Made by a program: the position numbers and the translations under genes
The notes under the pieces: model-generated
The model's input: the letters and a program-made list of their open reading frames with translations, nothing else
Told to the model about the DNA's origin: nothing
The model's database searches: none
Part shown: piece by piece, positions 51,815 through 64,000 of the stretch
Numbering within the stretch: the stretch's first letter is position 1
How the letters are laid out: every line of letters begins with the position of its first letter
Source of the DNA: Nitrosospira sp. Nsp14
GTDB lineage: Bacteria; Pseudomonadota; Gammaproteobacteria; Burkholderiales; Nitrosomonadaceae
Assembly (NCBI RefSeq): GCF_900113575.1
Contig: NZ_FOPV01000009.1
Span: 62,001-126,000, forward strand
DNA length: 64,000 nucleotides
Direction: 5' to 3'

Positions 51815-51890
<76 letters not shown>

Positions 51891-52381: not shown

Positions 52382-54067
52382 TCATGCGGCGTTTTGGAGA
52401 ATCGGACACAGCGCGCCGTGCAGTGCGGCTTTCAGGAGGCGGCGGGTGGCAGCGGCTGTGATGGTAACTTGAGCTTCCAGTTGGTCACAAAGCTTCATCA
52501 ACTCATCCACCTTCGCAACGATCCGATATTGCTCGGCGAGGGGTGGGAGTGCTACTAACATGTTCTTCAGCGCCGTCCCGTTAACATTCGCCTGTCCAGT
52601 TTGTTTTTTAATTAATGGAATAATCTGAGTTTCGCGAAACTCAGATGTGTTCATAGCCAAATTTAGGTAATGGGGACAGCCGGAAGTCGGCGATGAGCGA
52701 ATCCGTATTAAATATGAGGCAAAAGTTCTGGCGTCATCCTCGTCAAGGTAAATACCAGTCTTCCCGACGAGTTCAGCGCTATTCGTCCGGTTGTACAGAA
52801 TATCAAGCTTGCGCAGGTAAAGCGCCGGAAGTTCATTCGACGATTCTGGTATCCTTTTCTCACTTCTGTAAATGATTCGTCCATCCTGAATGTTACCCAT
52901 TGTGAGAACAGGCACCCCATTGTCAGCAGTATGGGACTTCAGGGATGTTCCATACTGGGTGAACAGAACGGCGCTCCCGATACGCGCCCATATCCAGTTA
53001 TCCGGAATTGCGAATGGATGGGCGTCCGGATGAACAGGTTCAAGGGGTGGTTCTCGGCGAATCGATCCTTTTTTAACAAGATCGGAGCGCTCTACTGCTA
53101 CTCGGTGGAGCAATTCAGTCGCTGGTTCGTCGTCGGGGTCTTGGGGAACAAGTTTGCCTCGCACGGCGAGATTGAGGATAGTTTGACGCAGCTGCTTGAT
53201 ATGCGCTGGACGGGTGGTTAGGCGCGGCAGGTGGTCAAAGATGAAATGGTCGCCGGCGCAACACGGTTCGTTACCGCTAGGCTGGTTCAGCTGCTGCAAG
53301 CTGGCAGCTAGCAAACGGTCGCGCCCTTTCTCCCGCTCGTGAGTTGCCGCTTCTAACTGGTCGCACAGCGACATAAGTTCATCGACGCGACCCTGAACAG
53401 TTGGCGTAATGATGGGCACCGGTACTTCTGCGATTTTGCCAATTGTTAACGTCACGTTTGCGGTGCCATTCATTTTTGACACGAGCAACTCAGCCCTGAA
53501 CGCCGTCAGGTATTCAAAAAGAAATCGAGCAGAAATCAACTTTTCATCAATGGGAAATACCGCGCACAGAATCGTTCCGAGTGCGAACTTGCCTTCTTGA
53601 TAATGGAGCCGATTCAAACTGGCATGACCGTGCCCAGTAGATGAAACCATCGGAACAATGGCGGCCGTACCGTCGAAATCATAGTGATCACAGGTTGAAC
53701 GCCCCTCCCCCGTAGTAACAAGGGGAAATTCGCCCGGGGTCGCGCCCTGAATTCCGGTCAGCCCTTTTTGGAGGCTTGCTAAGTTGCCGAGACGCTCAAA
53801 TGTACGATGGGCCATATCTGGGCCCGGGAGTTCTTCTGACCTTATTGGATCCATTGCTTTCTGCTTCTTAAGCCTACCCTGCTTAATGAGTATGGCGGCT
53901 TTGGCTTCAATACGGTTGAGCATTTCCGACGCAGAAATATCCGCGTCCGGCCTTTCCAACAGCTTTCCTCGAATTGCCAAATTAACAATGTAGCGGCGGA
54001 GCAGTGGAATATTTTCAGGGTCATTGGTAACCAGATCAAAACGCTCCAAGAGGGCTCTTTCACTCAT
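52382..54067 (-). CDS. hsdS: Type I restriction enzyme specificity subunit HsdS
   Basis: A 561-residue protein with two target-recognition domains, each followed by a conserved helix: VDELMSLCDQLEAATHEREK (about 228-250) and VDELMKLCDQLEAQVTITAA near the C-terminus. Each half contains the ILNLAVRGKL-type and PLAEQYRIVAKV-type spacers. It names the DNA sequence recognised by the HsdR-HsdM complex. Its ATG overlaps hsdM by 4 nt. The recognition sequence cannot be read from the protein. Confidence 0.92.
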   Translation of the reverse strand: MSERALLERFDLVTNDPENIPLLRRYIVNLAIRGKLLERPDADISASEMLNRIEAKAAILIKQGRLKKQKAMDPIRSEELPGPDMAHRTFERLGNLASLQKGLTGIQGATPGEFPLVTTGEGRSTCDHYDFDGTAAIVPMVSSTGHGHASLNRLHYQEGKFALGTILCAVFPIDEKLISARFLFEYLTAFRAELLVSKMNGTANVTLTIGKIAEVPVPIITPTVQGRVDELMSLCDQLEAATHEREKGRDRLLAASLQQLNQPSGNEPCCAGDHFIFDHLPRLTTRPAHIKQLRQTILNLAVRGKLVPQDPDDEPATELLHRVAVERSDLVKKGSIRREPPLEPVHPDAHPFAIPDNWIWARIGSAVLFTQYGTSLKSHTADNGVPVLTMGNIQDGRIIYRSEKRIPESSNELPALYLRKLDILYNRTNSAELVGKTGIYLDEDDARTFASYLIRIRSSPTSGCPHYLNLAMNTSEFRETQIIPLIKKQTGQANVNGTALKNMLVALPPLAEQYRIVAKVDELMKLCDQLEAQVTITAAATRRLLKAALHGALCPILQNAA

Positions 54068-55521
54068 CGCAGCAAAGCTTCTTCAAGAATCGCCCTAAGT
54101 TGGTCACGAATAGCTTTTGTTTTTTGCTCGGTCGCTACGAGTTCGATTAGTAGTTGCTCTGGATCGGCGTGATCGTTGGGAATGATGCGCGGATTCTTAA
54201 AGTCTAGGTTGTAGTTGCGCGCCTTGATGTCGTCTATGCTGACTTTCCAGGCTAGATCTGTTTCCACCCGGTTCCCGCGTCCTGCCTCGCCCCACCACTC
54301 GAGACAGCCTTGCAGGTATTCCGTTTTCATGGGCTTTGTCATTGAGTAGGCTTGCTGCCCTTCTGGCACACGATGCTCGTAGAACCAAATTTCTTCCGTC
54401 GGCGTGCCCTTTTCGAAGAACAGCAGATTGGTGCCTATACTCGCGTAAGGTTTGAACACACTGTTGGGCAGGCGCACAACGGTGTGCAAGTTGCACTCTT
54501 CGAGCAGGTGTTCTTTTAGCCGCGTTTTCACGCCTTCACCAAACAGGGAGCCATCTGGCAACACAATAGCAGCGCGACCACCGGGTTTGAGCAGTCGGAT
54601 AAACAGGGCCAGAAACAGATCGGCCGTTTCTTTGGTGCGAAAATGTGAGGGGAAATTAGACTCGATACCGTCTTCTTCCTTGCCCCCAAATGGCGGGTTA
54701 GTGAGGATGATGTCCACCCGGTCGGTTGGGCCATAGCTGATGTAAGGCCGCGCCAGTGTATTGTCGTGACGCACGAAGCTGGGTTCCTCAATGCCGTGCA
54801 GCAACATATTTGTGACGCAGAGCATGTGCGGGAGCTGTTTTTTTTCTACCGCTCGCAGGTTCGTCAGCATGCTTTGTTCATCCTCGACTGTTTTGACATA
54901 GCGGTCGCGCATATGTCGAATAGCGCAGGTGAGAAATCCACCAGTTCCACATGAGGGGTCAAGCAGGATTTCGCCCGGCTTAGGATCGATTCGATCGACC
55001 ATGAAGGCGGTGACAGCACGAGGAGTGTAATATTCGCCCGCATTGCCAGCGCTTTGTAGATCGTTGAGCAATTGCTCGTAGATGGAGCCGAAATGCTTGC
55101 GCTCGGTCAGGTCATTGAAGTCCACGCGACTAATTTTATTGATGACCTGCCGCATGAGATGGCCAGACTTCATGTAGTTGTGGGCATCTTCAAAGACACT
55201 GCGGACCACGCGGCAGCGGTTAGCACTGTTGCCCGAGGCGGGAAGTGCCTTGAGCTTAGGGAATAACTCGATGTTAATGAAGGTTTGCAGCGCTTCCCCG
55301 GTGATACCCTCGGGATCACTCGCCCAAGCTCGCCATTGCAGAGCTTTCGGGATTGGCGACCGGTAATTGTCCTGCATCACCTCGAGCTGTTGATCCTGGT
55401 CATCGATTATTTTCAGGAAAAACATCCAGCAAAGCTGGGAGAGACGCTGGGCATCCCCATCGACACCCACATCCTGGCGCATGATATTTTGGATGGATTT
55501 AACCGTATTCCTGACTGACAT
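54064..55521 (-). CDS. hsdM: Type I restriction-modification DNA methyltransferase HsdM
   Basis: An N6-adenine methyltransferase of 485 residues. The N-terminal HsdM helical domain (about 1-140) precedes YYTPRAVTAFMV, the SAM motif DPSCGTGGF (188-196) and catalytic NPPF (275-278). It follows hsdR by 3 nt and overlaps hsdS, so the three genes form one operon. Confidence 0.95.
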   Translation of the reverse strand: MSVRNTVKSIQNIMRQDVGVDGDAQRLSQLCWMFFLKIIDDQDQQLEVMQDNYRSPIPKALQWRAWASDPEGITGEALQTFINIELFPKLKALPASGNSANRCRVVRSVFEDAHNYMKSGHLMRQVINKISRVDFNDLTERKHFGSIYEQLLNDLQSAGNAGEYYTPRAVTAFMVDRIDPKPGEILLDPSCGTGGFLTCAIRHMRDRYVKTVEDEQSMLTNLRAVEKKQLPHMLCVTNMLLHGIEEPSFVRHDNTLARPYISYGPTDRVDIILTNPPFGGKEEDGIESNFPSHFRTKETADLFLALFIRLLKPGGRAAIVLPDGSLFGEGVKTRLKEHLLEECNLHTVVRLPNSVFKPYASIGTNLLFFEKGTPTEEIWFYEHRVPEGQQAYSMTKPMKTEYLQGCLEWWGEAGRGNRVETDLAWKVSIDDIKARNYNLDFKNPRIIPNDHADPEQLLIELVATEQKTKAIRDQLRAILEEALLR

Positions 55522-55524
55522 GAT

Positions 55525-57984
55525 TTAAACAATATCCTGATAAAGAGCGGTTTGCAGTTCATGAACCGCGTTCTCGAAACTGGTGCGAGACCCGAATTGC
55601 TTAATGAGCTGGAATGGTGTTCCCATCCTGTTGAAGGGCGAGATTTCCAGAATCTTGCTGTTATCCAGACCGCTGATAATGCCCTCGTCCTGATACTTGG
55701 CTAGGAGCGCTTCTAGCACAGCCCGTGCTTGTGCCCCGTACTTTGTGAATACATCGCGTTTGCGCACATTATTGGCTCGGTCGCGCCGTGTCAAAGGCGG
55801 CTGATCGAAAGCAATGTGACAAATCAGGTCGAAGGGATCAAGGTCTTTATCTACTTCTTCCAACAACGGGGCCAGCAACAATCCTGCTTCCGCCAGTTCT
55901 TCAATAATGGCTTCCTTCCGCTCGACAGATCTCCACCGACGCAGGAATTGATCAAGACTAATGTATTGCTGCCGAATTGCCTTACGACTGTAGTCGCGCA
56001 GAGATTCAGTAATTAATTTGCCGTCTTCATCCAGATATTCTACCCGCTCGGTGAGCACGGCCACCGGGTTGCCCTTGATATAGAACTTGCGAGGGCTGTC
56101 GCCATCGTCCGGCGGTAGATCGATAACCGGCGGGTCGCCATCGACTACCGTTTCATCCTCGCCAGGCTGTGGCGGAATAGGCTCTTCATTGTCGTCATCG
56201 GATGGCGGCACATCGTCCGGCGGGACGACAGGGTCGTCCTCACCGGGCTCGTAAATCTGGGCGGGCTCGCCGTCGAAATCGGGGTCGGCAAAATGGTTGG
56301 TCGCTCTGCGGAAGTCGACTAGGGTGAAATAGTACTTTTTCGTATCTTCATGCACCCGGGTGCCACGTCCCACGATCTGCTTGAACTCGGTCATGGAGCC
56401 GATTTCTCGGTCGAGCACAATCAACCGACAGGTTTGTGCATCGACTCCGGTGGACAGCAGGCGTGAGGTGGTGACAATAACTGGGTACGGCGCCTCGGGA
56501 TCAATAAAATTGCCAATTTGCGCTGCCCCTTCGCTATCGTTCCCCGTGATCCGCATCACGTAGCGCACGTTTCGTTGGACAAGGTCCTGGTTCTCATTGA
56601 TGAAGGCTTGGCGCATCCGAGCCGCATGTTCGGTATCGACGCAAAAAACAATCGTCTTCTGCATCCGATTGCCGCTTTGCTTCAGGTGGTCCGACACCCA
56701 CTTGGCGACACGCCTCGTGCGTTCGTCAATCACGAGGTTGCGGTCAAAATCTTTTTGATTGTAGATGCGGTCTTCGATTTCATGGCCATAATCGTCCACT
56801 TCCGCTTGCTGGGGCCGATAACCTTCTGCATCAACGTCCAGATGTACCTTAATGACTTTATAGGGGGCAAGGAAGCCGTCGCGAATGCCCTGTCTCAGGG
56901 TGTAGGTGTATACCGGCGCCCCGAAGTAATGGATGTTTGAAACATACTCGGTTTCCTTGGGTGTGGCGGTAAGGCCAATTTGCGTAGCGGTGGAAAAATA
57001 TTCGAGGATTTCCCGCCAAGTGGAATCTTCGGCCGCGCTGCCCCGATGACATTCGTCGATAACGATGAGATCGAAGAAGCTAGGCGAAAACTCGCGGAAC
57101 AGTTTTTGTCGTTCGTCAGGGCCCGTAATTGCCTGATACAGCCCGAGATATATCTCATAAGACGTGTTGATGCGGCGGTGCTTGTCGACTGCAGTTGTAA
57201 TGACCTCTAAATTCCCATCATCCCGTTCAATGGTTTTGGCACCGGTGCTAAGTTTGGCCATAGCCGCACCGAAAGGGCGGAAGTCGTTGACCATAGTTTG
57301 GTCGATCAGAACATTTCGGTCTGCCAAAAATAGGATGCGTTTCTTTAGCCCGACGTTCCATAGACGCCAGATGATCTGAAAAGCTGTGTAAGTTTTGCCG
57401 GTGCCGGTTGCCATGACGAGCAAAATACGATTTTGCCCTTTACTGACGGCTTCAACCGCGGCGTTGATAGCATTGCGCTGGTAGTAGCGTGGCTCCTTGC
57501 CACTGCCGTCGTCGTGATAAGGTTGCAGGACAATCTCTTCCTGTTCAGATTCCAGTCCTTTCCAGATACAGTATTGCTTCCATAAGGTTGCAGAGCTCGG
57601 AAATGCGTCGAGCGCAAGCGTGGTTTCCAGTTGGGCACTCAGGCCCGTGCGGTCATGAAACGCGAACCCATCGCCGTTGGAAGCGAATACAAAGGGGATA
57701 TCGAGTGTGACGGCATAATCCAGCGCCTGCTGCATCCCATCGCCTACGGCAAAGTTATTGTCCTTCGCTTCTATCAGGGCGATAGGGAAGTGCTGATGAT
57801 AGAGGATGTAATCAGCCCGCTTCGCCTTGCCTCGCGTGACCAGCTTGCCCCGGACGATGATGCGACCCTTAGTGAAAAAGACCTCGCGGCGAATCTGGGC
57901 TAACTCATTCCATCCCGCCTGTATAACTGCAGGTGTAATGTACTTGGCGCAAATGTCGGATTCGCTCAGCGTTTTTTTGCTCAT
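55525..57984 (-). CDS. hsdR: Type I restriction enzyme endonuclease subunit HsdR
   Basis: An 819-residue translocase-nuclease of the EcoEI-like type. The N-terminal nuclease has D58 and E72-A-K74 (ALIEAKD), the PD-(D/E)XK core. Then Walker A MATGTGKT (191-198), DECH (310-313) and the TATP motif (339-342), followed by helicase motif VI near QIVGRGTRVHED. An acidic Pro/Asp-rich stretch (about 580-630) lies between the motor and the C-terminal domain. First gene of the hsdR-hsdM-hsdS operon, in apparent working order. Confidence 0.95.
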   Translation of the reverse strand: MSKKTLSESDICAKYITPAVIQAGWNELAQIRREVFFTKGRIIVRGKLVTRGKAKRADYILYHQHFPIALIEAKDNNFAVGDGMQQALDYAVTLDIPFVFASNGDGFAFHDRTGLSAQLETTLALDAFPSSATLWKQYCIWKGLESEQEEIVLQPYHDDGSGKEPRYYQRNAINAAVEAVSKGQNRILLVMATGTGKTYTAFQIIWRLWNVGLKKRILFLADRNVLIDQTMVNDFRPFGAAMAKLSTGAKTIERDDGNLEVITTAVDKHRRINTSYEIYLGLYQAITGPDERQKLFREFSPSFFDLIVIDECHRGSAAEDSTWREILEYFSTATQIGLTATPKETEYVSNIHYFGAPVYTYTLRQGIRDGFLAPYKVIKVHLDVDAEGYRPQQAEVDDYGHEIEDRIYNQKDFDRNLVIDERTRRVAKWVSDHLKQSGNRMQKTIVFCVDTEHAARMRQAFINENQDLVQRNVRYVMRITGNDSEGAAQIGNFIDPEAPYPVIVTTSRLLSTGVDAQTCRLIVLDREIGSMTEFKQIVGRGTRVHEDTKKYYFTLVDFRRATNHFADPDFDGEPAQIYEPGEDDPVVPPDDVPPSDDDNEEPIPPQPGEDETVVDGDPPVIDLPPDDGDSPRKFYIKGNPVAVLTERVEYLDEDGKLITESLRDYSRKAIRQQYISLDQFLRRWRSVERKEAIIEELAEAGLLLAPLLEEVDKDLDPFDLICHIAFDQPPLTRRDRANNVRKRDVFTKYGAQARAVLEALLAKYQDEGIISGLDNSKILEISPFNRMGTPFQLIKQFGSRTSFENAVHELQTALYQDIV

Positions 57985-58245: not shown

Positions 58246-58590
58246 TTAGACGAAATTGGGCTTAACAATAGACTCAATTTCTTTTGCGAACTTAACGTCC
58301 AGTTTTTTGAAAGCGTCAATTACCTCTGGCCAACATACGCTTACGTATAGCCTTGCTTCGCACTCTTCGATAGTGGCGATGATCTCGTTGGCGGTTTTGA
58401 TGTCTCGGAAATGTTCTAAGTTAGACCACCTTTTTCGCAACAACTTGCGCACGTAGATCGAGTAGACGCCTGCTTTAGTCCGGGTGGCGACAATATAGTC
58501 CGTCCAATCAGAGATCATATTGTCGCCTTCCTCCTCAAAAAGCAAAGCTGCAGGACAACGCGCGAATGCCAGCGGGTGTTCATTCACCAT
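58246..58590 (-). CDS. Hypothetical protein, 114 residues
   Basis: ATG 58590 has an AAGGA site 7 nt upstream, so a start at 58632 is rejected. The protein has an N-terminal ISDWTDYIVATRTKAGVYSIYVR segment that looks beta-rich, then helices rich in Lys and Glu (IIATIEECEARL, KKLDVKFAKEIESIVKP). No signal peptide, membrane helix or known motif. It lies upstream of hsdR on the same strand, 261 nt away, and may belong to the same accessory block. Confidence 0.6.
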   Translation of the reverse strand: MVNEHPLAFARCPAALLFEEEGDNMISDWTDYIVATRTKAGVYSIYVRKLLRKRWSNLEHFRDIKTANEIIATIEECEARLYVSVCWPEVIDAFKKLDVKFAKEIESIVKPNFV

Positions 58591-58701
58591 TATTTTTCCT
58601 TTTCGAATCAAGCAAACGGTCATAATCGTCAAATGAGGAGGCGAGCTATCCGGACTTGAACAATGTGCAGGGCTAGATCAGACCTGTAATATCAATCGCA
58701 C

Positions 58702-58836: not shown

Positions 58837-59524
58837 GCTGTTTTTGCTGCCGTTTCAAATCGGATCGTGGTAACGTTATCCGGTTCGTCTACATCGATGC
58901 TGACGTTGCTCAGGTCTCTTCCAAACCCTCGAGCAAGTATTTGCGGGTGGGCAAGAAATCTTCAAACGCGAAGGCGAGAAGCAACCCGACAGAAAGATGC
59001 ACTTTCGGTATCCATTACATCACCCTCGGTTGATTTGTCGTGGCTGGCAGGCGCCCTCCTACCAGCTGCACAAGCTCGTCACCTATTAAGCCACCTGTTG
59101 TTTATTAAATAAATCAGCCTTTTTTGGTCTTAACCATAGGACAGCGGAACAATAGCGTGTGGCCTGCTAACTGTATTACTGGCACAGGCTCGATCATACG
59201 GCTATGGAGATTAATGAACAGTGGACCTTAGTACAGCTTTTTCCGTGCAGGCAAACCTAGCCGGTGAACGTATCACGGTTGGACTTTCAAGCTGAGTAGT
59301 CGCGAGGTGTACGTCAGTCCAATAGTTATTTCTACAATAATTAGTAGACTCGCGTTTAGACATGCTTGAGCTAATGGACGTTTCAGAGTTAGTCAGGAAG
59401 GGCTTTTTGCTGTAGTCGTTCGGATCTAATTTGAGACTTGTCTTACAGAGTTGGGGTTGCTCCAGAAGTTTATCGCGTGACGTCCGCAGTTGCCCCGTTT
59501 ATAAAAAGGGGAAGGAGGCGAGGA
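58837..59524. other. 690 nt without a supportable gene
   Basis: Only one plus frame (58867-59112) is over 60 codons, and it has no motif or ribosome site. AT-rich DNA near 59320-59440 may hold the promoter of the next gene, but I see no clear boxes. Confidence 0.5.
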
Positions 59525-60283
59525 ATGATTGATGAGGTATACGACCCGAATTGGACGGCAAAGGTTACGGTGCCTGTACGCAGGGTCGGAACTAAATGGG
59601 AATTCTTCTATGGTGGAGACGTCCCCGTACACGAAGGAACCATTGGCAACCTTGTTATCCCTATCGCGCAAATCATGGACAAAGCCTTTCTTAAAATGGT
59701 TAGTGACGAGACTGTTGTCAAGATCCTGGATGAGGGTACGAAATTATTGGTAGCCCTCAGTGACCGAGGCGCGGGTATGAGATATGTACGGGTAGGACGA
59801 CCTTGGCCAGATGTTCCCATCGAAAACATGCCTCCAGGCACGACACGGTTCGAACAAATTGTGATTGGCCCGCCGAACATATCTATCCCCCGACAAAGGG
59901 AATTGGTCGCAAAAAAGATGGGGGGTGGACTTTGGATTCGGCTAAAGGGACTCGAGCGTTCAGAGCTGGAGTGCAGTACTGTACATGTGCCGGAAGAAGT
60001 ATCTCATAAGGATGCGGTTAGCCTCAATCACGCGTTAACGCTGCTATCACAACATTACGAAACACATCGCATTTCACACACCGGTAATGTCTACGAACGG
60101 GTCTTTTACCAGGAAGAGAATAATAAGTGGTATCCCATCGGGCACCTCCGAGAGGGAGTCCGAGCGCGGGCAGAGAGGAGCGTTATTGCATCAGTTTGGG
60201 ACAGAATTGAAGAGAAGTTAGGCTGGTGCCAGCTAATCCCTGAACCAAAGCCGATCAATGGGCGCCGTCGTTCACGTAAATAG
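59525..60283 (+). CDS. Hypothetical protein, 252 residues
   Basis: The start MIDEVYDPNWTAKVTVPVRR has an unusually strong ribosome site (AAGGAGGCGAGGA), so the upstream TTG start is rejected. The N-terminal half is beta-rich with VGRPWPDVPIENMPPGTTR, and the C-terminal part is helical and basic, ending in GRRRSRK. There is no signal peptide or membrane helix. I know no family. It is convergent with the HEPN-like gene, 132 nt between stops, and may be a third part of the same accessory module or an unrelated gene. Confidence 0.7.
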   Translation: MIDEVYDPNWTAKVTVPVRRVGTKWEFFYGGDVPVHEGTIGNLVIPIAQIMDKAFLKMVSDETVVKILDEGTKLLVALSDRGAGMRYVRVGRPWPDVPIENMPPGTTRFEQIVIGPPNISIPRQRELVAKKMGGGLWIRLKGLERSELECSTVHVPEEVSHKDAVSLNHALTLLSQHYETHRISHTGNVYERVFYQEENNKWYPIGHLREGVRARAERSVIASVWDRIEEKLGWCQLIPEPKPINGRRRSRK

Positions 60284-60415: not shown

Positions 60416-61717
60416 TCAGTCGAGATAACGAATGAATGTTGAATACTGTCCAGCATCGAAGGTAGGATCAAGCTTAAGGGCCAGATCGCGTAAAAAACCG
60501 TGATCGTCCGAGGCCCGACTTCTTGCCCAAGTTTGGCTGTTACTTTCTATCCCCTCAATGAGGTCAACGCAATCGCCGATCTCATACCGCCCCAACCTTG
60601 GCCGGATGGCCTCGCTAAAACGTCGATCCGCAGTATCGTAGCTGCCGCTGGCGACGTAATATTTATTGGCTAGCCGAACAACTACCTTATCCCATTCGGG
60701 GGACTCTGACAGTTCCTCAAGGGCTTTCCACATGTTGGTATCAATCTGCGGACTTTCTTGTCCAAGAATCCACTCGCCCAACCGCATACCATGCTCCTGC
60801 AAGCTCTCCGCTGTGAACCAGGCCATGCACCTCCCCCACACGCTATGTTCCGCAGCATGTTGAATTGCCGTTTTTGCGTGATTGGCCAATAATCGGTACA
60901 AATATGGTTCTTTTGAGAGGAAACCGATGAGATAGACGACGGGGCTACCAGTAGGCGCTATCTCGCTGAAATAGTCTTTGTCTGTTTCGACCAAGCTTCT
61001 GAAACCATGCGGGTTTCGCGAGAATAGCAACTTCAGCGCCCTGTAGTTAATGTCTCGGTTTTTCTCGCAACGCTCATTGGTGAGCCGAAACGCAAACCTC
61101 CATAATGCCCGAAACACAAGCTTCTCAACCTCCGGATTGAAGCGCGCGAAATACTTACTCTCCAAGTACGCTTTTAGTTGCTTGTCGTCGATCAGAATAC
61201 TTGATGTCTGTTCGAGATTTTCAACAAGGTCATCTACGATTTGTTTGGACAGAATAGGTGCTTTAGTAAGCAAACCATCAAGGGTATTGCGAATCATTGC
61301 GCGGGCCGTTTCCCGGTTGGGTCGGTGCAACTGGAAGTTCGCGTTCACCACCGGATGTGCGGCGAGATGGCGCTGTCTCTGCAGATGCAACAAATTTTCC
61401 CGATCCGCGATATCGAGTAGCTGGGTTTGCTCGGCAACCGCCACAACCAGCTTAGTTTCCCAAATCGGCGACCGTTCGTTTTCCTGTTGCAGCTTACCGA
61501 TCTCAGTCAGAATGTCCTTGGCCTTTGCATCGCCATAGAGGTCGTCGAGGTTCTGTAACTTGAAGAGGAGATCGCAGACGGCAACTGCCCACAGCATAAC
61601 GACTGATGATCGGTAGTTACCCGACTCATAACAGCTCAACACCTCTAAAAAATATTCCTTGGTTCGTGCGTCGAAAATCTGGGTTGCACGCTGCTCAATA
61701 GAATACTCGTCAAACAT
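60416..61717 (-). CDS. Hypothetical protein with HEPN-like N-terminal domain
   Basis: The 433-residue protein begins with helices GNYRSSVVMLWAVAVCDLLF and ends this domain with LQRQRHLAAHPV. It contains R116-x4-H121 (RHLAAH), the R-x4-6-H signature of HEPN ribonucleases and the RN.laHp-like pattern of HEPN families. The remaining 300 residues are helical, with no known motif. GAGAGGTGG stands before the ATG. It lies after the 61953-62912 gene on the same strand, 235 nt away. HEPN proteins often cleave RNA in abortive infection and toxin-antitoxin systems; the role here is inferred. Confidence 0.75.
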   Translation of the reverse strand: MFDEYSIEQRATQIFDARTKEYFLEVLSCYESGNYRSSVVMLWAVAVCDLLFKLQNLDDLYGDAKAKDILTEIGKLQQENERSPIWETKLVVAVAEQTQLLDIADRENLLHLQRQRHLAAHPVVNANFQLHRPNRETARAMIRNTLDGLLTKAPILSKQIVDDLVENLEQTSSILIDDKQLKAYLESKYFARFNPEVEKLVFRALWRFAFRLTNERCEKNRDINYRALKLLFSRNPHGFRSLVETDKDYFSEIAPTGSPVVYLIGFLSKEPYLYRLLANHAKTAIQHAAEHSVWGRCMAWFTAESLQEHGMRLGEWILGQESPQIDTNMWKALEELSESPEWDKVVVRLANKYYVASGSYDTADRRFSEAIRPRLGRYEIGDCVDLIEGIESNSQTWARSRASDDHGFLRDLALKLDPTFDAGQYSTFIRYLD

Positions 61718-61952
61718 CTACCACCTCTCTTTGGAAACATAGACGTTAGCAAAACGGCACTTCCCCATGTGTGAAGGGGCTTGCCGGATTGCCTTCGACG
61801 AAGGGATTGACGGGCGGGATAGTGCACTCAATCTCGAATCAAGGTTTGGAAAATTTGGGGCACGGAAATTAGCAGCCTCAAGCGCAAAGTTTTCCTGCCC
61901 ACCGCCGTGGGAACTTTTTGTGACAATTGTTCTTTTTTTGCTGTCATTACGC

Positions 61953-62912
61953 TCACCATCGAACTAAGGCAAACTGTTCTATACCGAATTCCTGGCGAAG
62001 GTAATCACCCCAATACAACCAAGCCTCTAGGCCATTGTCGTTTGCTCGCATACTTTCGGGAAGCAGAAAACCATTTTCAGCGTTATCTTCCGCAGCAAAC
62101 AGCTCCCGCAAACGCCTACCTGCATCGTTAATCGAAATGAATCCGTGATCGTCTTGAACGGTCCCAGCCACTTTCGCTAAGAAACTCGTCAAGCTAGTCC
62201 CAACATCGGGCAATGCGAGGGGGGAGTGGAAGCATAAATCTGAACCCCCCTCTGTAAAACTGTAGCTGTGCTTAGCGTCCGATACTATTGAGTGGGGTGG
62301 AATGGAAATATGCTCGCGCAATACAGGAACTTGATCGAATTTGATTTCGCCACTCGTACTGGAGATCAGGATTTCCTCCAATTCCCAAGGGCTGCTGCGC
62401 CAAAATATTGGCCACAACATTAACCCCGACATGTGGACATGAAACCTGTATGCAGACCGTTCGAGAAACAACGGGCAAACATACGCCGCATCCCCAACAC
62501 CGGCAGAGAGCAGCCGCTTACGCAGACGGTACAAGACGTTGTGTTGGTAGTCGTAGTGCTGTTCCCGCTTCTTGCGCAACTCGAAGTACAAAGTGTGAGG
62601 CGACACGGGCAAACGTAGCTTTTCTCTGTCGGCAATGACCTTGGCTGTACTGATGTCGGGGTATGCAGATGGCCGTTTGAATTGCATGTAAAAAGGCTTG
62701 AAACTCTTCAGATACCCATCCAATCGCGCATCCGCTCCCAGCCATCGCTCCTGCCGCCGGGAAAACGGTTTGATTGAAAAACGAAGGCGGGGAAAACTCA
62801 ATACGGACAAAAAGGATTCAATAGCGAAACCAACAGTGTCTTCGGTGAAGTCCGCATCGAGGCGAAAACTATTTTTATTCGTCTTTGCCAAATATATCTC
62901 TCTTTTGATCAT
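61953..62912 (-). CDS. Hypothetical protein with possible PD-(D/E)XK-like core
   Basis: The 319-residue reading from ATG 62912 (MIKREIYLAKTNKN) has no strong ribosome site; an in-frame start 17 codons upstream is possible. ERWLGADARLDG followed by FKPFYMQFKRP resembles the acidic-x(15)-QxK core (D61, Q77, K79) of nucleases of the PD-(D/E)XK superfamily with glutamine in place of the second acid. The rest shows no known motif. The pairing with the HEPN-like gene downstream is the reason to see them as one unit. A non-nuclease role cannot be excluded. Confidence 0.6.
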   Translation of the reverse strand: MIKREIYLAKTNKNSFRLDADFTEDTVGFAIESFLSVLSFPRLRFSIKPFSRRQERWLGADARLDGYLKSFKPFYMQFKRPSAYPDISTAKVIADREKLRLPVSPHTLYFELRKKREQHYDYQHNVLYRLRKRLLSAGVGDAAYVCPLFLERSAYRFHVHMSGLMLWPIFWRSSPWELEEILISSTSGEIKFDQVPVLREHISIPPHSIVSDAKHSYSFTEGGSDLCFHSPLALPDVGTSLTSFLAKVAGTVQDDHGFISINDAGRRLRELFAAEDNAENGFLLPESMRANDNGLEAWLYWGDYLRQEFGIEQFALVRW

Positions 62913-63607
62913 GTTAGAAATTGTGAAACTCCTCAAGCAGCGAGAAGCCCCCGAGCGCGACATCGAGCGTCCCCCGGCTCTAAATTCTTCTCATAGACTC
63001 AATCCAACCATTTGTAGTCCCTGGTTTAGCTATATATTCTGAGCCCCTCGAATTCATGCGCAAATAAATGCTGGGAAGCCTCATTAGCTCATCTCAGGTT
63101 TTTTGTGCGCACGTCAAGGGGCCTGCCGTAATCACCGCGATCCTAATTGCACTACAGTTCATGTAAAACATACCCCTGCACGATGGGTTATATAACCAGA
63201 AATGGATACCCTAAATAATACGAAGGCTCCCACAACCACCGCTATGCTCAAGTCCACCGGATATTACTGCTGAGGTAGGATAATAACCCCTTTGAGCTAA
63301 GCAATTTGGATTTAAGCGTATCAAATGGAGAGGGTGTTCATGCCATCGCCGGACCGAACATCGAGCAAAAGCACGAGACGAATAACGAACAAGAAACGGC
63401 AAGAGAAAAGAGAAAATGACGTTTTAATAGTGGCGAATGATCGCCGTATTCGAATGACCCCAAATTTTAAATGAATCTCATACCAATACTCAGTACCAGC
63501 GCTAGGAGTAGGTGGAAATTAGATGCGCAGGGCTTTCAACTGACAAAGATAAAAGACCGGTTTACAATCCTTTCCACAAGCGACGGCTGGGGCCTGCCTG
63601 TCCTTCC
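62913..63607. other. 690 nt without a supportable gene
   Basis: Frames of 60-115 codons on both strands lack motifs and ribosome sites. I see no repeat or RNA gene. Confidence 0.5.
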
Positions 63608-63814
63608 CTATTCTGATATTCGCCTCCTTTGCTCTTTTAGCAACAGGGACAATTCGCGCAGCAAAGGACGTGTACCGCCCTTATATGCGTTACGTGCCAC
63701 TTTTGCCTTGCCCTCCGGGGTTCGAGCCCCTATTGAATGCTCCCACGGTTTCCATTGCTGAATCAGCTCTGATTGCTTCGCCCGCTGGTTCCACGTCCAT
63801 TTTCTCGCCGCCAT
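63608..63814 (-). CDS. Small conserved basic protein (TPEGKA type)
   Basis: The 68-residue protein begins MAARKWTWNQRAKQSELIQQ and has WKPWEHSIGARTPEGKAKVARNAYKGG in pieces: WKPWEHS, RTPEGKA and NAYKGG. I recall many similar short proteins (WKPWE.S.G..T.EGKA...NA.KGG) in betaproteobacteria and phage-derived DNA, without known function. An AGAGGTAGG site precedes the ATG. It overlaps the upstream gene by 125 nt in another frame, an arrangement I also recall for this pair. Confidence 0.7.
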   Translation of the reverse strand: MAARKWTWNQRAKQSELIQQWKPWEHSIGARTPEGKAKVARNAYKGGTRPLLRELSLLLKEQRRRISE

Positions 63815-64000
63815 GACCTACCTCTAATAGTTCGTTTTGCTGCATTTCATTTTTTCCCGGCCGCATCGCTGACAACGGCGCAGTTATCGCATTGTTAACC
63901 TGCTGGTGGCCATGCGCGATATTTGTTTGCCCTGAATATATTGTTGGTGGATTCTTGATTGCTGCCAAGGATTCAAGGGTAGCTCTGCACTGGGTTTGTG
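63690..64000 (-). CDS. C-terminal part of conserved accessory protein, 5' end outside window
   Basis: The frame is open through 64000. It reads CRATLESLAAIKNP and then QTNIAHGHQQVNN, a pattern I recall from proteins of accessory DNA in betaproteobacteria (LA.IKNP...QANIA.G.QQVNNG). The last part is low-complexity and hydrophilic. An internal TTG at 63968 could be taken for a start, but the conserved stretch continues upstream. Function is unknown. Its 3' end overlaps the next small gene by 125 nt. Confidence 0.65.
   Translation of the reverse strand, partial: QTQCRATLESLAAIKNPPTIYSGQTNIAHGHQQVNNAITAPLSAMRPGKNEMQQNELLEVGHGGEKMDVEPAGEAIRADSAMETVGAFNRGSNPGGQGKSGT

Follow-up and report, generated by a model that had tools for sequence, protein, structure and literature searches.

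Examination of the window, by which we mean the whole stretch of 64,000 nucleotides analysed, confirmed two open reading frames (ORFs) on the minus strand that the initial annotation had described as a gene pair. The upstream member is located at 61953..62912 and encodes 319 aa (336 aa if translation began at an in-frame ATG at 62963), and the downstream member, at 60416..61717, encodes 433 aa. The two genes are separated by a gap of 235 nt (61718–61952), which contains a terminator-like stem at 61892–61913, located on the plus strand. Between positions 57900 and 63500, neither promoter-like sites (5, versus 6.6 in shuffled sequences) nor terminator-like sites (4, versus 6.2) exceeded the shuffled expectation; thus, these sites were uninformative on co-transcription of the pair.

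The type I restriction–modification (RM) genes hsdRMS, which had also been noted nearby, were confirmed by Pfam, PADLOC and NCBIfam on the same strand, 2.4 kb downstream of the 433-aa gene. HsdR (55525–57984, minus strand) belongs to the EcoAI/FtnUII family (NCBIfam NF046051, 1149 bits against a cutoff of 550; PADLOC REase_I), and together with the methyltransferase HsdM (54064–55521, minus strand; Pfam N6_Mtase, E 1.9e-70; PADLOC MTase_I) and the specificity subunit HsdS (52382–54067, minus strand; Pfam Methylase_S, E 6.3e-13; PADLOC Specificity_I) it constitutes a type I RM system of this family. Two ORFs lie between the 433-aa gene and hsdR, one of 281 aa on the plus strand (59438..60283), opposite to its neighbours, and one of 128 aa on the minus strand (58246..58632); neither had an accepted family match in Pfam, PADLOC, PHROGs or NCBIfam.

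Both genes and the type I RM locus are contained in an integrative element of 17.8 kb bounded by two copies of the end of tRNA-Thr(CGU). One end of the element is the 3′ part of the tRNA (49 bases at 51842..51890, plus strand, within 51815–51890 of the window), and the second tRNA end, which repeats 48 of the 49 bases, was found beyond the window at contig positions 131678–131726 (window coordinate 69678–69726; L013:6179–6227). Read from this far end, the element contains, beyond the window, a tyrosine integrase (contig 130336–131532), a 283-aa ORF, an HTH_17/excisionase-like gene and a DUF3631 gene, followed by a 232-aa ORF at the start of the mobility end (63690..64000, reaching 64388; minus strand), the gene pair and the RM locus. 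Further out, about 8–12 kb past the end of the element, lie genes with Pfam matches to AMO, Monooxygenase_B and CopC (L013:14277–18365); those matching AMO and Monooxygenase_B suggest that the host is probably an ammonia oxidiser.

The aroQ/tRNA region was present in 22 of the 23 genomes of the genus, own genome included. A second tRNA end was located 7 to 16 kb away in three of the 22 other genomes (G767, G777 and G765); in G768, there was no second tRNA copy, the right-hand flank started 608 bases after the tRNA, and the site (L030) looks empty. No tblastn match to the 433-aa gene, the 319-aa gene or the 281-aa ORF was detected in the three sister islands. Their PADLOC scan covered nine chosen proteins and revealed different contents. 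The G767 island contained an integrase 76% identical to that of the element, another type I RM system and an ATPase gene with partial GajA/AriA-type matches; the G777 island, a cytosine methylase, a HEPN_MAE_28990 protein and an NsnA/PD-T4-2_A-like protein; and the G765 island, a DRT (UG9) reverse transcriptase with an RTasPolA neighbour. The site of tRNA-Thr(CGU) looks like an integration hotspot in the genus. Counting the element itself, four of the 23 genomes (stretches L013 and L027–L029) had a second tRNA end 7–18 kb off, with islands that match different PADLOC defence models.

Both members of the pair had been described as being of unknown family, and their proposed functions were read from motifs: RHLAAH, residues 116–121 of the 433-aa protein, as the R-x4-H motif of a HEPN-like domain, and GADARL...QFK in the 319-aa protein, which places D61 and K79, as a PD-(D/E)XK-like core. 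These motifs are by themselves near chance. When the 433-aa protein was shuffled 2000 times, 1086 of the shuffles contained R-x4-H, as did 21 of the 54 gene-like ORFs of the window; for the 319-aa protein, 189 of 2000 shuffles contained GxD-x9-25-[DEQ]xK, which was also present in 6 of those 54 ORFs. Narrower patterns were rarer (R-H-x3-H, 31 of 2000; GxD-x9-25-QxK, 48 of 2000), and were picked after the sequence had been seen. Since the shuffle counts were near chance, we rejected the motif as proof of either fold; the HEPN gene is settled by family-level evidence, not by its motif.

The family-level searches revealed that the 433-aa protein matches the PADLOC model PD-T7-3 (PDLC04108) with an E value of 6.5e-164 over residues 3–428 (profile positions 2–428 of 432). 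The description as unknown family therefore no longer applies to this gene, but still fits the 319-aa gene, for which no match was accepted. Profile search against the PDB revealed matches of the 433-aa protein to 9wxf, 'Dandelion' (E 1.2e-72, residues 5–426), to 9wx2, named 'Dandelion-hepn' by its depositors (E 6.8e-41, residues 5–157), and to 9wwz (residues 156–426, the C-terminal helical domain). A literature search for 'Dandelion' as a defence protein found no paper. R116, H121 and P122 were kept in all 21 homologue loci aligning at these positions; the other four of the 25 homologue loci searched had no alignment over the R116–P122 region. The PD-T7-3 and 9wx2 matches, as well as this conservation, bear out the HEPN assignment of the downstream gene.

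The AlphaFold model of the 433-aa protein was all-helical with a pLDDT of 75.6. Block means of pLDDT ranged from 29 to 73 for residues 1–160, the N-terminal domain being only moderately confident, and from 82 to 94 for the helices of residues 201–390. A Foldseek search with this model, against a PDB library extending to April 2026, yielded nothing at E≤0.001; the best match was to a designed protein (E 0.014), followed by mostly helical-repeat proteins among the matches listed. HEPN membership is therefore supported by sequence, not by fold comparison. On these profile matches, the protein is assigned an N-terminal HEPN domain with R116–H121, followed by an all-helical domain, and the gene, by the same assignment, adds a member to the already published anti-phage family PD-T7-3. 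This member is probably RNA-cutting.

PD-T7-3, identified in a functional selection, confers protection on E. coli that is stronger for T-even phages than for T7 (Vassallo et al. 2022, PMC9519451). In a review table, it is entered as HEPN (PMC10952713). The related protein BxaP (ORF376) is described as structurally similar to PD-T7-3, inserted in BREX type 3 loci, protective against T4, likely by abortive infection, and active in a strain that has neither BREX nor type I RM; it is given an N-terminal DUF4145 domain, HEPN-related according to that paper, and a C-terminal region with a weak HEAT-like match (PMC10799925). We infer that P121 of BxaP may correspond to P122 of the 433-aa protein. 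The account of BxaP also states that PD-T7-3 does not appear in defence islands (PMC10799925), whereas the 433-aa gene here sits in an element with type I RM. PD-T7-3 is also reported as frequent in a Pseudomonas island hotspot (PMC12629846).

Analysis of homologue contexts revealed eight homologues of the 433-aa protein at an identity of at least 69% (L002, L003, L005 and L032–L036). In seven of them, all except L003, the homologue is the gene immediately after a helicase gene that belongs to a BREX-like or BREX-related operon. This helicase is BrxHII-like in L002, L032, L033, L034 and L036; in L005 and L035, it is the PLD-helicase of an operon with DUF499, DUF3780 and DUF1156. PADLOC labels were obtained for the L002 and L005 operons and helicase matches for all seven loci. 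Note that the helicases were 90–92% and 98% identical within the two sets, so the seven loci represent few independent cases. Five of the seven are viral contigs, which differs from the published description of phage homologues in type I RM loci only (PMC10799925). As a separate observation, the helicase-then-PD-T7-3 order in seven of the eight close homologues suggests translational coupling, as an auxiliary effector.

The 433-aa protein as lone query found no relative in viral contigs, and the alignment as query found five. Matches were detected in 174 plasmid records, of which nine covered at least 80% of the protein; contexts were examined for six records, one of them lacking annotation. 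On an Agrobacterium plasmid, the homologue was located alone between trb and tra genes, without a partner, and ORF1 of the P2-EC30 Z-region, a short record, was likewise a homologue with no partner gene. PD-T7-3 homologues, some of them weak, were found in 4 of 299 other genomes of the order and in 6 of 397 other genomes of the phylum. In Cardiobacterium valvarum, the gene was split over two frames (L004:8001–9318; residues 1–67 and 65–425); this copy is probably inactive or reflects a sequencing error.

PrrC with its RM system is a model for a protein that is triggered by failed restriction. The 433-aa protein could act comparably, belonging to the nearby type I RM system as a subunit or accessory and responding when restriction fails. 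The recurrent company with DNA-restriction genes, seen in the seven of eight homologues located after a BREX-like or BREX-related helicase, is in favour of this, as is the report that phage homologues of BxaP occur only within type I RM loci (PMC10799925). However, 2.4 kb of DNA that includes an opposite-strand ORF separates the gene from hsdR, relatives of HsdR, HsdM or HsdS at E≤1e-3 were found in none of the 25 PD-T7-3 homologue loci within the available flanks, and BxaP is described as working without RM or BREX (PMC10799925). We consider a dependence on the RM system rather unlikely. The setting of the 433-aa gene agrees with the reported company of the PD-T7-3 family with DNA-restriction systems.

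The initial annotation had gone further and suggested that the pair, with its RNA- and DNA-cutting domains, fits an undescribed defence system. In such a two-component system, a PD-(D/E)XK DNase would cooperate with a HEPN RNase. The arrangement itself, two adjacent genes on the same strand 235 nt apart, and the retention of E32 and D61...Q77-x-K79 in the single homologue of the 319-aa protein are compatible with such a system. The co-occurrence search that the annotation had named as a check did not find the genes together. None of the 25 PD-T7-3 homologue loci contained the 319-aa gene at E≤1e-3, and the nearest match covered 33 residues (E 0.12). Flanks were about 1.5 kb or less at ten of these loci and were cut by contig edges at several more; a further limit is that three loci (L008, L019 and L020) are weak homologues that were not re-found by tblastn. 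In the other direction, no PD-T7-3 match was found in the one record with a homologue of the 319-aa protein (L012; 0 of 1), which may be a fragment. With a single relative found, the lack of co-occurrence is based on two occurrences of the 319-aa family. In addition, PD-T7-3 and BxaP are described as acting without such a partner (PMC9519451, PMC10799925), and the DNase assignment of the 319-aa protein has neither profile nor fold support. Because none of the 25 PD-T7-3 loci carries the 319-aa gene and the L012 record lacks PD-T7-3, the pairing fails as far as tested: a two-gene HEPN plus PD-(D/E)XK system is not supported, and we regard joint action of the two proteins as very improbable. Thus, the HEPN half of the initial reading stood, as an already known family, the pairing did not, and the nuclease half is unproven.

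Searches with the 319-aa protein revealed an orphan. Pfam, PADLOC and PHROGs returned nothing for it at E≤1, and NCBIfam only a sub-cutoff PAAR match (12 bits, E 0.15); at E≤10, Pfam gave only DUF7219 (E 0.15), on the homologue. A match of the pair formed by the protein and its homologue to a DUF1812 protein in the PDB profile search (43 residues, E 7.7e-4) was taken as chance, and profile comparison of the same pair with HsdR revealed nothing. The genome samples searched, which overlap, comprised 300 genomes of the order, 398 of the phylum, 125 of the family and 369 of the class; in each of them, the own genome was the only one to match. Plasmids and phages contained none at E≤0.01, and with the homologue as query they gave matches only at E 0.5 and 0.7. 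Repeated scans of viral contigs returned one contig each time, IMGVR_UViG_2788500486_000005 (L012), whose protein, the sole homologue found, is 57% identical over 316 aligned positions. Comparison of the two genes over 315 codons revealed 116, 76 and 210 differences at codon positions 1, 2 and 3, respectively, a pattern which indicates that the 319-aa gene is translated and under selection.

The residues E32, D61, Q77 and K79 of the 319-aa protein are identical in the homologue, as are many residues at 57% identity. Their spacing, with E32, D61 and Q77-x-K79, fits the PD-(D/E)XK motif, and the predicted order of helix, strands, helix and strand would resemble that fold in a model that is itself unreliable (pLDDT 34.2, pTM 0.24, all residues below 50). 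The protein has no PD-(D/E)XK profile, PDB or fold support, and the motif is common by chance. A PD-(D/E)XK nuclease is possible at motif level, neither confirmed nor excluded.

The context of the homologue bears on what the 319-aa gene may do. In the phage-like contig, the homologue is flanked by the genes of a head-tail adaptor and a major head protein and runs on the opposite strand to them, and this placement between head genes speaks for a phage or element gene outside defence, such as a satellite or prophage accessory gene, which we regard as close to an even possibility. Against this, genes that match defence models are present in the sister islands at this tRNA, and prophage-borne defence genes can have the same layout. 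Because the same-site islands carry genes that match PADLOC defence models, the 319-aa orphan can fairly be considered a candidate for a defence function. A more specific proposal, tentative and somewhat doubtful, is that the gene is of a very rare, undescribed kind that acts alone against phages or plasmids, possibly encodes a divergent PD-(D/E)XK nuclease, and is moved as cargo by tRNA-Thr islands and phages. The tRNA-Thr site is a ready place to seek new defence genes, the orphan included. On the same contig, 4 kb from the homologue, we also observed a 203-aa protein with RNDIAH, an R-x4-H motif (L012:9916–10527, minus strand); its match to Pfam HEPN_RiboL-PSP was weak and below the cutoff (E 0.026), and PADLOC gave none at E≤1e-5.

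Taken together, the pair is very probably not one system. The two genes would instead be separate cargo of the 17.8-kb tRNA-Thr(CGU) element, which also carries type I RM, the 433-aa gene being a PD-T7-3/Dandelion gene whose product is likely a lone sensor and RNase, and the 319-aa gene independent rare cargo. The element would have entered the 3′ end of tRNA-Thr(CGU) by means of its own tyrosine integrase. The 433-aa HEPN protein, if this copy is active, would be kept inactive until a phage is sensed, perhaps by the helical C-terminal domain; it would most likely sense infection alone and then cleave RNA, and this cleavage would stop phage growth, probably together with the cell, by abortive infection. 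Type I RM may form the first line of defence and the HEPN protein the second. The 319-aa gene is perhaps defensive by the company it keeps, with a nuclease role possible.

Comparison with known systems places the 433-aa gene closest to PD-T7-3, to which it corresponds by a full-length profile match and by R-x4-H in a predicted N-terminal HEPN domain; the comparison was made by profile, and the E. coli prophage homologue, P2-EC30 ORF1, is 34% identical to the 433-aa protein. It differs from PD-T7-3 in its location inside a tRNA-Thr element with type I RM, and activity of this copy is putative. The likeness to Dandelion (9wxf, 9wx2 and 9wwz) extends over residues 5–426 of 433, including the HEPN domain named by the depositors, although Dandelion is a distinct protein, distantly related to the one described here. 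BxaP resembles the 433-aa protein by its published description, as a PD-T7-3-like protein associated with BREX type 3 and, in phages, with type I RM (PMC10799925). The type of arrangement seen here, with a HEPN gene of the PD-T7-3 kind close to type I RM genes, has thus been described before.
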